Origin: a virus
DNA: 35,442 bases
Virus record (IMG/VR): IMGVR_UViG_3300034283_000164
Span: 1 to 35,442 of that record
Strand: one strand, 5' to 3'
Part shown: positions 3,409-31,291 of the stretch, in pieces
How the letters are laid out: each line of letters starts with the position of its first letter
Numbering within the stretch: the first letter of the stretch is position 1
Notes under the pieces: model-generated
The model's database searches: none
The model's input: the letters and a program-made list of their open reading frames with translations, nothing else
What the model was told of the DNA's origin: nothing
Position numbers and translations under genes: made by a program

Positions 3409-3914
3409 CAAAAAACGATATCATCGCAGGTCTGTACACCGATAAGGATATAGACAATGCCATCAAGAAGATGCAACCTTTTGAGTTGCAGGATGATTTG
3501 AGGCAAGAGATGTTTATGGTACTTTGTGAGATGGATGAGGCAAAGTTTATGTCAATGCATAACGGGGGATTCTTAAAGTTCTACTTGGTCCGCACAATGC
3601 TCTCAATGATAAAGTCGGATAGGTCAACCTTCTTTAATAAGTTCCGCAGAGTATTTACTGAATGGACCGAGAAATACGATGCACCCGATGTAAGCGATAC
3701 CATCCAAACTGATGAGATAACTGTTAAACTGAATAATTCTTTAAAGATTCTGCATTGGTACGAACTTGAGATACTTCGCTTATATTCCGAGAACGGGCAA
3801 AACATAATGTCCCTTTCACGAGACACTGGCATCCCTTATAGGTCGCTAATGAAAACCATTAAAAAAACTAAAACACTTTTAAAATATAAAATCAAAAACC
3901 ATGCTATCACTTAA
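3399..3914 (+). CDS. Sigma-70-like (ECF-type) transcription factor
   Basis: The protein is 171 residues. Residues about 28-70 (DDLRQEMFMVLCEM..., then FLKFYLVRTMLSMIKSDR) resemble sigma region 2. Residues about 118-160 (LHWYELEILRLYSENGQNIMSLSRDTGIP...) resemble the region 4 helix-turn-helix that reads the -35 element. The order and spacing fit a small ECF-like sigma factor or sigma-derived regulator. It lies at the end of the replication block and upstream of structural genes, so it may redirect host RNA polymerase to late genes; this is inference. No second promoter class was identified for it. Confidence 0.7.
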   Translation: MGLTKNDIIAGLYTDKDIDNAIKKMQPFELQDDLRQEMFMVLCEMDEAKFMSMHNGGFLKFYLVRTMLSMIKSDRSTFFNKFRRVFTEWTEKYDAPDVSDTIQTDEITVKLNNSLKILHWYELEILRLYSENGQNIMSLSRDTGIPYRSLMKTIKKTKTLLKYKIKNHAIT

Positions 3915-27783: not shown

Positions 27784-28125
27784 ATGACAACGTACAAATG
27801 GATTATTTCGCAAATGAATGAGTACCCAACTACTGCTGACAACCTTACCGATGTTGTGTTCACCGTACATTGGAGGAGACAAGCAGAGCAAGTTGATGGT
27901 GATAAGACTTGGTTCGCTGAAACCTATGGTGCTCAGAGCGTACCTCCTCCTGCTCCCGACAATTTCACCCCATATGCTGACCTAACTCAAGCAATCGTTG
28001 AGGGATGGTTGGAAAGTGGACTTGATGTGGCGGTAATTGATGCATCACTTGACGTGCAAATTGAGAACCAAAAGAACCCAAAAGAAGTAACCCTTCCTTT
28101 GCCTTGGTTGACAAATAATATATAA
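27784..28125 (+). CDS. Small phage protein after the fibre (DUF7936-like)
   Basis: The protein is 113 residues. The start TYKWIISQMNEYPTTADNLTDVVFTVHWRRQA and the C-terminal YADLTQAIVEGWLESGL and ending PLPW match a small conserved family I recall downstream of fibre genes in marine and Bacteroidetes phages. That recall is not checked. Function is unknown; it may be a virion accessory or fibre-associated protein. The promoter for the lysis genes overlaps its 3' end. Confidence 0.6.
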   Translation: MTTYKWIISQMNEYPTTADNLTDVVFTVHWRRQAEQVDGDKTWFAETYGAQSVPPPAPDNFTPYADLTQAIVEGWLESGLDVAVIDASLDVQIENQKNPKEVTLPLPWLTNNI

Positions 28126-28145: not shown

Positions 28146-28277
28146 ATGACACTAATTGAACTGAAAGCAGCAGCTTACGATTTATTGGCAAATTTGGAAC
28201 ACTTGCAAAAGCAACTTCAAGAGGTTAACCAAAAGATTGCAGAAGAACTCCAAAAAGAGAAAGCAGAAAATGGATAG
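28146..28277 (+). CDS. 43-aa coiled-coil microprotein
   Basis: The gene encodes 43 residues that are almost entirely one amphipathic helix (LKAAAYDLLANLEHLQKQ..., then NQKIAEELQKEKAEN). Leu/Ile spacing suggests a coiled coil. It is first after the lysis promoter and overlaps the next ATG by 8 bases. Similar tiny helical proteins precede holins in Bacteroidetes phages. A regulatory or chaperone role in lysis timing is possible, but nothing shows it. Confidence 0.6.
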   Translation: MTLIELKAAAYDLLANLEHLQKQLQEVNQKIAEELQKEKAENG

Positions 28278-28431
28278 CAAATCTATTGGAATGTGTGTAG
28301 CAACCATACTGATTAAGGTTTGGGCAGATATTGCCCTCTCCGAGGTCGGTGTGGTTGTTGCTATTTTAGCAGGACTTACGACAATAGTCTACAACGTGGT
28401 TAGGCTTTACAAGGAGTTAAAGACCAAATGA
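28270..28431 (+). CDS. Small holin-like membrane protein
   Basis: The protein is 53 residues. Two hydrophobic segments (about 5-22 and 27-44) are followed by a short basic tail (RLYKELKTK), the layout of a class II small holin. It is ATG-overlapped by the preceding microprotein and is ATGA-coupled to the PAS-domain gene. A holin would form inner-membrane lesions that release the endolysin. The alternative is that the neighbouring 72-residue protein or the PAS-fused protein is the true holin. Confidence 0.55.
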   Translation: MDSKSIGMCVATILIKVWADIALSEVGVVVAILAGLTTIVYNVVRLYKELKTK

Positions 28432-29168
28432 AAAACCTATCCAAAGAAGAACTATTAAGTAGGCTTGAAGCAATTAATCGTTCTAATGCCATTATCTACT
28501 TTGACTTGGAAGGCTACATCTTGGGGATGAACTCCATGTTTTTATTGGCAATGGGATACCAAGAGGAGGACCATAAGCAACTAATTGGAAAGCATCATAG
28601 TATTTTTGTAAGTTACGAGTATTCCAAATCTGATGAGTATAAAAAGTTTTGGGAAACGCTAAGAAGCGGAAAGTTCTTTGAGGGTGAGTTTGAAAGGAAA
28701 AAAATGGATGGTGCACCTATATTTTTACAGGCAACCTACAATCCTATCTTTGATGAAAACAATGTCATCACTAAGGTGATGAAGATAGCGACTGACATAA
28801 CAGAAACAGTCAATTATAAGAACAAGATAGATGCTCTTTCTAAAGACCTGCAACTTGAGTTAGATAAGTCGCAACAACTAAAAAACGCCATTGAGATAGA
28901 GAAGAACGCTGCATTGAATGACTTGGACATACTGATGAAGAAGTCACAATCCGAATTGATTAAAACAATCGTTGTGGTTGCATTGGTGGTAATTGTAGGT
29001 GTTGGTTTGGTTACGACTGTGATGTATTGGATGGCAATGGTAACGGGTAAGGATACGCAAATAATTGGTTCTACCTGGTCAAATATGTTTAGTGTATTAT
29101 TGACAAATGCATTCTCAATAGTAGGTACAATCATGGGTATTAAATATGCAACACAAGACAAAAAATAA
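28428..29168 (+). CDS. PAS-domain protein with coiled coil and two C-terminal membrane helices
   Basis: The protein is 246 residues. Residues about 15-125 form a PAS domain very like those of Aer/BdlA-type chemoreceptors: LEGYILGMNSMFLLAMGY, GKHHSIFV, SDEYKKFWETLRSGKFFEGEF, FLQATYNPIFDENN, MKIATDIT. A coiled coil follows (128-175). Two membrane helices come next (177-205 and about 216-236), joined by a short polar loop, with a basic end. There is no kinase, output or methyl-accepting domain. It lies between two small membrane proteins in the lysis module. The fusion suggests a sensor-controlled membrane protein, possibly a holin or antiholin. PAS cofactor (heme, flavin or none) cannot be judged from sequence. 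Confidence 0.8.
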   Translation: MKNLSKEELLSRLEAINRSNAIIYFDLEGYILGMNSMFLLAMGYQEEDHKQLIGKHHSIFVSYEYSKSDEYKKFWETLRSGKFFEGEFERKKMDGAPIFLQATYNPIFDENNVITKVMKIATDITETVNYKNKIDALSKDLQLELDKSQQLKNAIEIEKNAALNDLDILMKKSQSELIKTIVVVALVVIVGVGLVTTVMYWMAMVTGKDTQIIGSTWSNMFSVLLTNAFSIVGTIMGIKYATQDKK

Positions 29169-29171
29169 AAT

Positions 29172-29390
29172 ATGAAACAATTTTTTTGTGAGGAAAATGG
29201 CAGGTTATCAATGAAAAGGTTATGCGGATTTATCTGTGTGATTATCATTTGCGTAACTATGTACCACAATTCATTTCATGAAACGGAACCAAGCGAGGCA
29301 TTGGTTTACTCTGTTTCTGCTCTTGCCTTTGGTTGCCTTGGTTTGACTTCAGCAGAGAAAATATTTAAGAAAGATGAAAATAAAGATTGA
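29172..29390 (+). CDS. Holin-like two-helix membrane protein
   Basis: The protein is 72 residues. After a polar N terminus come two hydrophobic segments: LCGFICVIIICVTMY (17-31) and ALVYSVSALAFGCLGL (43-58), then a Lys-rich end. I know similar proteins from Bacteroidetes phages, usually between tail genes and endolysin. It is a candidate holin or antiholin together with the 53-residue protein. It starts 3 bases after the PAS gene and overlaps the spanin candidate by 17 bases. Confidence 0.6.
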   Translation: MKQFFCEENGRLSMKRLCGFICVIIICVTMYHNSFHETEPSEALVYSVSALAFGCLGLTSAEKIFKKDENKD

Positions 29391-29865
29391 CCCACTTAAT
29401 GTCTTGCTAATTGCATTGATATTGGTATTTACTATTTTTTGGTTGCTATCTTGTAATCCAGTAAAGCAGGTTTTGCGTGACCAAGAGAAGTTAGAAGAAG
29501 TCGCAAAGGTTGTAGTAAAGGGAGGGTGGTGTGCGAATGATACTACCTTCATCACCACATCAGATACACTTGTTGAGGTTGATACATTGGTGAGGATTGA
29601 TACGCTTACTGATACCTATGTGCTAAATGATACAACCTACATCACCAAGTGGAAAACAAGAGATATTACAAAGTCAATCACCATTCACGATACCATTAAG
29701 TCATTCATTGTTGACAATGCTCGTGTGAGGTTATTACAGGCAGATTCAGCACGTTTAGGAGGTGAGGTAATAGAATGGAAGGCAAAGGCAAAGAAAAGGC
29801 AAATATGGTTGTTTGCAATCGTTGCAATGATATTCGGTGCATTGTACATTAAATCTAAAATATGA
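29374..29865 (+). CDS. One-piece (u-)spanin candidate
   Basis: The protein is 163 residues. The N terminus is a hydrophobic signal (8-22) ending in WLLSC, a lipobox with lipidation cysteine C27, which would anchor it in the outer membrane. The C terminus has a second hydrophobic helix (about 144-159, IWLFAIVAMIFGALYI) with a basic end for the inner membrane. The middle (about 28-140) is Thr/Asp-rich with repeated DTL/DTT and predicted strands. This lipoprotein-plus-C-terminal-helix topology is that of u-spanins such as T1 gp11, which fuse the two membranes in the last step of lysis. It fits a Gram-negative host. Confidence 0.65.
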   Translation: MKIKIDPLNVLLIALILVFTIFWLLSCNPVKQVLRDQEKLEEVAKVVVKGGWCANDTTFITTSDTLVEVDTLVRIDTLTDTYVLNDTTYITKWKTRDITKSITIHDTIKSFIVDNARVRLLQADSARLGGEVIEWKAKAKKRQIWLFAIVAMIFGALYIKSKI

Positions 29866-30329
29866 AACTTAGCGAACACCTTGACCTTTCAGAAGTAACC
29901 CGTAGCGAATCAGCAAAACGTAAAGGAATAAGCAATATGCCAACGGAGGCACACATTGCCAACATTAAGTTATTAGCGGAGAAGATATTTGAACCAATAA
30001 GGAATCATTTTAGATGCCCAATAATTATCTCTTCGGGATATAGAAGCAAGGAGTTAAACGCTGCCATAGGTGGTTCTTTGACATCACAACATTGCCAGGG
30101 CGAAGCGATTGATATTGACATGGATGGTACACCAAATGGAGTAACCAATAGGATGGTTTTTGATTACATTAAAGATAACTTAGAATTTGACCAACTTATC
30201 TACGAGTTCGGAGATTCCAACAATCCTGATTGGGTACACGTTTCTTATGAATCAACTGGTAAACAAAGAAAGCAAATATTGAAGGCAATAAGGGTAAATG
30301 GGAAAACCTCTTATACTAATTATAAATGA
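29862..30329 (+). CDS. Endolysin, M15 zinc peptidase
   Basis: The protein is 155 residues, a single peptidase M15A domain. Likely zinc ligands are H77 and D84 in QHCQGEAIDID (76-86) and H126 in WVHVS. SGYRS (58-62) and LNAAIGGSLTS are conserved around the site. M15 peptidases cut the peptide stems or D-Ala cross-links of peptidoglycan. No signal peptide or binding domain is seen, so release needs a holin. It is ATGA-coupled to the spanin candidate and the next gene. Confidence 0.9.
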   Translation: MKLSEHLDLSEVTRSESAKRKGISNMPTEAHIANIKLLAEKIFEPIRNHFRCPIIISSGYRSKELNAAIGGSLTSQHCQGEAIDIDMDGTPNGVTNRMVFDYIKDNLEFDQLIYEFGDSNNPDWVHVSYESTGKQRKQILKAIRVNGKTSYTNYK

Positions 30330-31291
30330 CAAAAGTTCAAACTTGCGTAGATTATAGGGAAAGGTTCGGATGGGATATGCCGACCTTAAAACTTGCCAGG
30401 ATTATCTACAATGATAATCCTTTGCTTTTTAACTCGGTTGATACAATTCGTGCTACACTAAGAAGCATTGAAGGAAAAGGAGGTAAACGAGTAATTGTTA
30501 GGAAAGTGGTTGATAATAGACCAAAAAATCCTTATAATTTACCACAATCAGATGAGGCGATATACCAACCTTATGAGTTAAAAGCAAAGCGTTTGTTGGT
30601 TCTTTCCGACATACATATCCCTTACCATTCTATTGATGCGTTAACCTGTGCTTTTGATTATGCTAAAGATGAGAAACCCGATGCAATACTTTTGAATGGT
30701 GATACTTTAGATTTCTTTGGATTGAGTAGGTTTGCCAAAGACCCAAAGGCGAGGTCATTTGCACATGAACTAAAGACATTTAAGGAGTTTATGGATGTGC
30801 TGAAAAGTACATTTGATGCCAAGATTTATTTCAAGATTGGCAACCATGAGGAAAGATACTTTCACTTTCTTTGGATGAAGGCACACGAGATTGTCGGAGT
30901 TGAAGAGTTTGAACTTGAAAATATCATCAAGTCAAGGGCAGAAGGGATTGAGATAATCAAGGACAAGAGGATAATGAAAGCAGGTGACTTAAATATAATT
31001 CATGGTCACGAGTTCGGAGGTTCGGTATTCTCACCCGTAAACATTGCCAGGGGATTGTTTTTAAAGGGTAAGGTAAGTGCAATGCAAGGACACAACCATT
31101 CTACCAGTGAACATACGGAATCAAACATGAACGGGGAAATAACAACTACCTGGTCGCTTGGTTGCCTATGTGAATTGCACCCGGCATACCTGCCCATAAA
31201 CAAATGGAATTGGGGTATGGCATTAATTGACATTGATGGTCAGAATTTTGAGGTCAGAAACAAAAGGATATTTAAAGGCAAAGTTCTTTAA
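30326..31291 (+). CDS. Calcineurin-like metallophosphoesterase
   Basis: The protein is 321 residues. The metal-site motifs appear in order: D95-x-H97 in LSDIHIPYH, GD (125-126) in LLNGDTLDFFG, GNHE (172-175), GH (227-228) in IIHGHEFGG and GHNH (255-258). The N-terminal ~85 residues (DYRERFGWDMPTLKLARIIYN) look helical and DNA-binding-like. Phage members act as phosphodiesterases or nucleases, but the substrate here is unknown. It follows the endolysin directly by ATGA overlap, an unusual late position. Confidence 0.85.
   Translation: MTKVQTCVDYRERFGWDMPTLKLARIIYNDNPLLFNSVDTIRATLRSIEGKGGKRVIVRKVVDNRPKNPYNLPQSDEAIYQPYELKAKRLLVLSDIHIPYHSIDALTCAFDYAKDEKPDAILLNGDTLDFFGLSRFAKDPKARSFAHELKTFKEFMDVLKSTFDAKIYFKIGNHEERYFHFLWMKAHEIVGVEEFELENIIKSRAEGIEIIKDKRIMKAGDLNIIHGHEFGGSVFSPVNIARGLFLKGKVSAMQGHNHSTSEHTESNMNGEITTTWSLGCLCELHPAYLPINKWNWGMALIDIDGQNFEVRNKRIFKGKVL

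Follow-up and report, generated by a model that had tools for sequence, protein, structure and literature searches.

The stretch of viral DNA analysed here (the window; IMG/VR record IMGVR_UViG_3300034283_000164, 35,442 nucleotides) carries on its plus strand a run of genes that overlap or abut one another, the second of which encodes a PAS-containing membrane protein, referred to here as PAS-TM. The run begins with the gene for a 53-aa hydrophobic protein (TM53, also c22; 28270-28431), the stop codon of which overlaps the PAS-TM start codon as ATGA. The PAS-TM open reading frame (28428-29168) is real and uninterrupted and encodes 246 aa. It is followed by genes for a 72-aa protein with two transmembrane (TM) helices that is a holin candidate (TM72, also c1; 29172-29390), a putative unimolecular spanin (29374-29865), and an M15 peptidase endolysin (29862-30329; Peptidase_M15_3, 2.1e-19; phrog_894 endolysin, 5e-38), and then by a metallophosphoesterase gene. 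The spanin-like product has no Pfam match and is assigned by its N-terminal lipobox (LLSC) and C-terminal TM helix. This tight run of genes, with its spanin-like lipoprotein and M15 endolysin, marks the region as a lysis operon, in which PAS-TM lies upstream of the spanin and endolysin genes, as an earlier note on this DNA had stated. That note also placed PAS-TM between two holin-like genes; both neighbors are indeed small hydrophobic or TM proteins, but neither matches a holin family, the best match being TM53 to phrog_20 'holin' (E=0.042).

The metallophosphoesterase (30326-31291) is calcineurin-like, and such genes lie directly 3' of or near the endolysin gene in many such operons, including L008, L010, L015, and L038, and fall into at least two distinct sequence clusters. 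Between a tail-fibre-like gene and the lysis operon lies a gene for a DUF7936 protein (27784-28125; Pfam, 1.1e-25), which is kept in many sister phages. The M15 endolysin has 51% identity to a protein of a Flavobacterium phage, and the portal of the window is 24% identical to that of Nonlabens phage P12024S; these matches weakly support the Bacteroidota host implied by the earlier note.

Pfam, AlphaFold2, and comparison with relatives together establish the architecture of PAS-TM at the sequence level: a PAS sensor domain, a coiled helix, and a two-helix membrane hairpin. In Pfam, PAS_9 matches residues 22-126 (E=1.2e-11), and PAS_3, PAS, and PAS_4 also exceed their cut-offs; no domain other than PAS is found above cut-off, and there is no kinase, MCP, HAMP, or nucleotide-cyclase domain. 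The AlphaFold2 model, which was built from 41 family members and has a moderate mean pLDDT of 69, consists of a PAS fold (residues 21-123; 28488-28796), a continuous helix (residues 125-206; 28800-29045) that forms a coiled coil and then TM1 (about 180-206), and a final helix (residues 211-242). By hydropathy, TM1 (about 181-199) is strongly hydrophobic (KD 2.9), and TM2 (about 221-239) is weaker (KD 1.45) and amphipathic; the TM2 module as a whole (residues 210-242, TQIIGSTWSNMFSVLLTNAFSIVGTIMGIKYAT; 29055-29153) has a stripe of polar and small residues on one face. The PAS domain matches MmoS and Aer in the PDB by sequence, and LOV, MmoS, NifL, and Aer PAS domains in Foldseek. The predicted topology is N-in/C-in, which would place the PAS domain in the cytoplasm. 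The description in the earlier note of a PAS domain, a coiled coil, and two C-terminal membrane helices that lack a kinase or other known output domain is thus borne out.

The PAS domain and its probable cofactor

The main determinant of FAD binding by PAS domains is a tryptophan in helix F-alpha, and a histidine occurs in the Aer and AerC clusters (PMC10468136). AerC (PAS_FAD2) is described as a redox sensor (PMC13401364), and both PAS domains of BdlA have been assigned to FAD (PMC8694187). In PAS-TM, W75 lies within the predicted F-alpha helix (residues 69-79); the corresponding Trp and His of Aer and MmoS align with W75 and H57, both of which are invariant across 41 aligned family members. 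The Asn of two FAD clusters, its position placed from Aer, is replaced in PAS-TM by Arg90, and Arg is likewise found in the MCP relatives. Since W75 and H57 are present and Arg90 is as in the chemoreceptor relatives, the domain matches the AerC type, and its sequence assigns it to the AerC/BdlA class (PAS_FAD2). A LOV (FMN) photoreceptor was considered and rejected: the photoactive E-alpha Cys is absent, His57 stands in its place, and the PAS domain of the window has no Cys at all.

Among the plasmid matches listed, the closest cellular PAS domains are 42-52% identical over the domain and, where annotated, belong mostly to MCPs; the PAS domain of PAS-TM resembles those of proteobacterial cytoplasmic chemoreceptors, in agreement with the earlier note. 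PAS-TM is nevertheless not an MCP, as Pfam finds in it no C-terminal signalling domain, which the cellular relatives do have. The domain may bind FAD, and redox may be its signal; the flavin redox or energy state is a likelier signal than oxygen itself, direct sensing of which is less likely. PAS domains frequently lose their cofactors, which counts against the flavin reading, as does Arg90 in place of the Asn.

Like PAS-TM, the PAS_FAD2 chemoreceptors AerC and BdlA have the F-alpha Trp and E-alpha His; each has two PAS domains, and members of the PAS-TM family have single or tandem PAS domains (PMC8694187, PMC10468136, PMC13401364). They differ in having an MCP signalling domain, whereas PAS-TM is phage-encoded and has a membrane hairpin after the PAS domain. 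E. coli Aer, which PAS-TM matches in both sequence and fold, is likewise a membrane-anchored energy sensor with an FAD-type PAS domain, but it has HAMP and kinase-control domains; PAS-TM lacks these, and its C-terminal hairpin is the only output.

Distribution, mobility, and association with lysis genes

A first scan of viral_contigs with the whole protein gave 148 full-length relatives of PAS-TM, and scanning with the C-terminal module gave 552, so that the family has hundreds of members in IMG/VR, on contigs of up to 272 kb. Two architectures occur, with one PAS domain (about 247 aa) or two (about 370 aa), and these are separated by two changes on the PAS-TM tree. No PAS-less members were found; apparent cases are truncated or frame-broken, or fall outside the counting pattern (L100). 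Two UniProt proteins from uncultured Caudovirales phages are likely relatives: A0A6J5L941, which carries the name 'histidine kinase' and is 48% identical over 136 columns, and A0A6J5PRT3, which is 51% identical over 119 columns. A search of 84,980 prokaryote species genomes with C-terminal and PAS patterns gave no cellular copy; it relied on exact short peptide matches, which more distant relatives could escape. The database 'phage' matches examined are MCP genes on unverified records and were rejected as phage homologues of PAS-TM; a fourth such match is an annotated aerotaxis receptor on a Salmonella record. Two of these unverified GenBank 'phage' records, L082 (MT836939.1) and L083 (OR848229.1), contain bacterial chemoreceptor genes and resemble contigs of bacterial origin.

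Comparison of DNA between loci indicates that PAS-TM moves between phages as a single gene. The window and L087, a 10-kb locus of an 88.5-kb phage, are 88.3% identical over 28427-29176 and have no other detectable match. Among the 713 context pairs open to comparison, 382 have only the PAS-TM gene in common at the DNA level; the shared stretch begins at the ATG start codon (a median of 1 bp upstream of it) and ends at the stop codon (median 0). The gene is present in 8 of the 80 loci that have the spanin gene of the window, L008 included, although some of these loci end before the site; in many complete cassettes (L246, L258, L272) the 53-aa gene is joined directly to a TM72-like gene. Because most sister cassettes are without PAS-TM, the lysis cassette evidently does not need it. 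The TM72 of L221, a sister phage that lacks PAS-TM, is 100% identical to that of the window, and since TM72 can be this similar with or without PAS-TM, which also accompanies unrelated lysis sets, no cassette-specific partner is apparent. Single-gene sharing and absence from sister phages characterize PAS-TM as an autonomous mobile add-on rather than an essential holin.

The site of PAS-TM is occupied by other genes in some sister phages. A pair of genes for a 1-TM protein and a lipoprotein is found in 34 sister cassettes; in L221 (3144-3799), L228 (3111-3766), and about 30 further sister loci the 1-TM protein is a coiled-coil protein, and the two form a spanin-like pair between a 43-aa coiled-coil gene and TM72, which corresponds to the TM53/PAS-TM place in the window. 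Sister loci with this pair also keep the downstream spanin-like gene. In L262 (3467-3763), a 3-TM holin-like protein, c43, is encoded at the exact PAS-TM site of the window. c43, which ends in LFDLIKTL.LMIFSYYFGTK, also occurs in several PAS-TM modules (L009, 2247-2549; L104, 3137-3454). Homology of the PAS-TM hairpin to c43 or to TM72 was considered and dropped, the hhalign probabilities being 16% and 1%, respectively.

The lysis setting of PAS-TM that the earlier note described in the window recurs among its homologues. Among 98 non-redundant contexts, 81 have three genes on both sides, and in 67 of these (83%) an endolysin of the M15, GH19, or phrog_33083 type lies within three genes of PAS-TM; for the other genes at these loci, which serve as a conservative control, the figure is 27%. 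TM72 lies within three genes in 57 of the 81 contexts, and an endolysin or TM72-like gene is nearby in 76. The nearby endolysins come from unrelated enzyme classes, and a GH19 member matches the phrog_181 endolysin at 1e-67; in L003 and L019 a GH24 lysozyme occupies the endolysin place. The L019 copy is split into two frames of 92 and 52 aa (3608-3883 and the following bases), compared with 147 aa in L020. In 11 contexts a separate 4-TM family is encoded near PAS-TM, a tested member of which passes the cut-off of Pfam Phage_holin_4_1. At least 15 switches of endolysin class fall on the PAS-TM tree, which implies that the link to lysis arose, or was rebuilt, repeatedly. Homologues consistently outside lysis modules, which would have spoken against the earlier note, are not seen, and there are only a few exceptions. 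In L054 and its kin, PAS-TM adjoins an exonuclease and a RecA-like gene, and the whole 134-kb record of L054 has no M15, GH19, or PF00959 match; in L125 and L090 the endolysin lies about 18 kb and about 10 kb away. A tie between PAS-TM and lysis modules is, from gene neighborhoods, well supported.

The invariant second membrane helix

Residues 210-242 are identical at all 33 positions in each of 71 full-length non-redundant contexts. Synonymous differences in TM2 are as frequent as elsewhere (pS 0.69), which excludes a DNA-level cause such as an overlapping gene or RNA element; pN/pS is 0.044, compared with 0.24 in the PAS strands, 0.20 in the coil, and 0.32 in TM1. Search bias was also rejected as a cause: a scan with a PAS-only peptide pattern, limited to the best 80 matches and so liable to miss distant relatives, gave 53 untruncated proteins starting with MKNLSKE, all 53 with identical TM2. 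On a helical wheel, Q211, S215, S218, N219, S222, T226, S230, G233, and G237 fall on one face of TM2.

An invariant helix of 33 residues points to a strict constraint from self-assembly or from a target. Between contexts, the identity of TM72 drops to about 18-21%. As TM2 is fixed while TM72 diverges, and TM72 is identical where PAS-TM is missing (L221), TM2 is probably constrained by itself or by a conserved component of the host, and not by TM72.

A possible role in lysis timing

Several roles could account for a membrane-bound PAS sensor in this position. PAS-TM could be an antiholin or holin partner that binds the phage's own holin and releases or blocks it in response to the PAS signal, in the manner of T4 RI and holin T, where the signal is a different one. 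Its place in the operon beside small TM proteins suits this role, and environment-sensing antiholins are known, as in T4 RI (PMC8385771) and lysis inhibition in ICP1 (PMC7182436). In a dedicated contact, however, the two partners should change together, and no co-variation of TM2 with the candidate holin TM72 is seen across the contexts compared; the unchanged TM72 of L221 argues in the same direction, and a role of this kind is quite unlikely. The main holin of the phage, gated by its PAS domain, is a far less probable identity still: a two-helix hairpin with a basic C-terminus is reminiscent of class II holins in its topology, and TM2 has its polar stripe, but the same cassette is found without PAS-TM, and other holin candidates, such as the 4-TM family, co-occur with it. 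PAS-TM has no match to a curated holin family in Pfam or PHROG, and all its Foldseek matches to viral holins have E > 0.05.

Rather unlikely, too, is a late host-modulating or superinfection-exclusion membrane protein for which the lysis region is merely a convenient site of insertion or expression. Movement as one gene with sharp ends, the lack of PAS-TM in most sister phages, and contexts outside lysis modules would all be expected of such cargo, and an invariant TM2 would suit a conserved host membrane target. Yet unrelated kinds of lysis modules are chosen again and again, and the same site in sister phages holds genes of envelope-lysis type (the 1-TM and lipoprotein pair, or the 3-TM protein) rather than unrelated cargo.

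We tentatively favor, with somewhat less than even confidence, a self-contained flavin/redox regulator in the inner membrane that would affect lysis timing through TM2 and membrane potential. The cytoplasmic PAS_FAD2-type domain would sense the flavin-redox (energy) state of the host cell during infection, and the coiled coil would transmit this state to the hairpin. The invariant amphipathic TM2 would then act in the membrane, most likely by a self-assembly that changes ion leak, and the altered membrane potential would affect whatever holin the phage has; the gene, placed beside the lysis genes, would be expressed along with them. Many holins fire when membrane potential collapses, and a redox-gated ion leak would therefore work with any holin. 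An autonomous device that joins a redox-type PAS domain to a fixed amphipathic helix and lies beside any lysis set is thus suggestive of an accessory timer with the membrane itself as its medium. The successive links between the PAS domain, the ion leak, and the holin, like the coupling to membrane potential, are putative; the effect may be to advance or to delay lysis, and a conserved target in the host membrane would explain the constraint on TM2 just as well. The broader proposal, a portable single-gene flavin-PAS redox gate that triggers or restrains lysis through membrane potential, serves any holin and endolysin, and has for this reason spread between unrelated phages, is possible but doubtful. 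The sensor-holin or sensor-antiholin of the earlier note keeps its link to lysis but not a basic holin role, with which sister cassettes that mostly lack PAS-TM disagree; PAS-TM is probably an accessory autonomous modulator instead.

To our knowledge, few examples are known of virulent phages that adjust lysis to host physiology, T4-type lysis inhibition being one. As proposed for PAS-TM, phage-encoded environmental sensing sets lysis time in T4 RI and in T4/ICP1 lysis inhibition (PMC8385771, PMC7182436), but T4 RI is a periplasmic sensor with a single holin partner (T), whereas PAS-TM has a predicted cytoplasmic PAS domain and accompanies unrelated lysis sets. Vibriophage VP882 also encodes a PAS sensor, VqmA, with an output that leads to lysis (PMC8284805); VqmA is a soluble transcription factor in the lysis-lysogeny choice, and PAS-TM is a predicted membrane protein that has no DNA-binding domain. 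The parts are thus known from PAS_FAD2 sensors, T4 RI, and VqmA; no description of a PAS or PAS-membrane protein in a lysis cassette was found in the literature covered, which included few subscription papers, and such proteins are apparently undescribed. The repeated insertion of PAS-TM beside the lysis genes of unrelated phages suggests that the moment of burst is tied to the energy state of the cell. If the proposed role is true, PAS-TM would be a widespread modular sensor in lysis cassettes, a portable gated membrane module, and would provide a direct link between host redox/energy state and burst timing in environmental phages.
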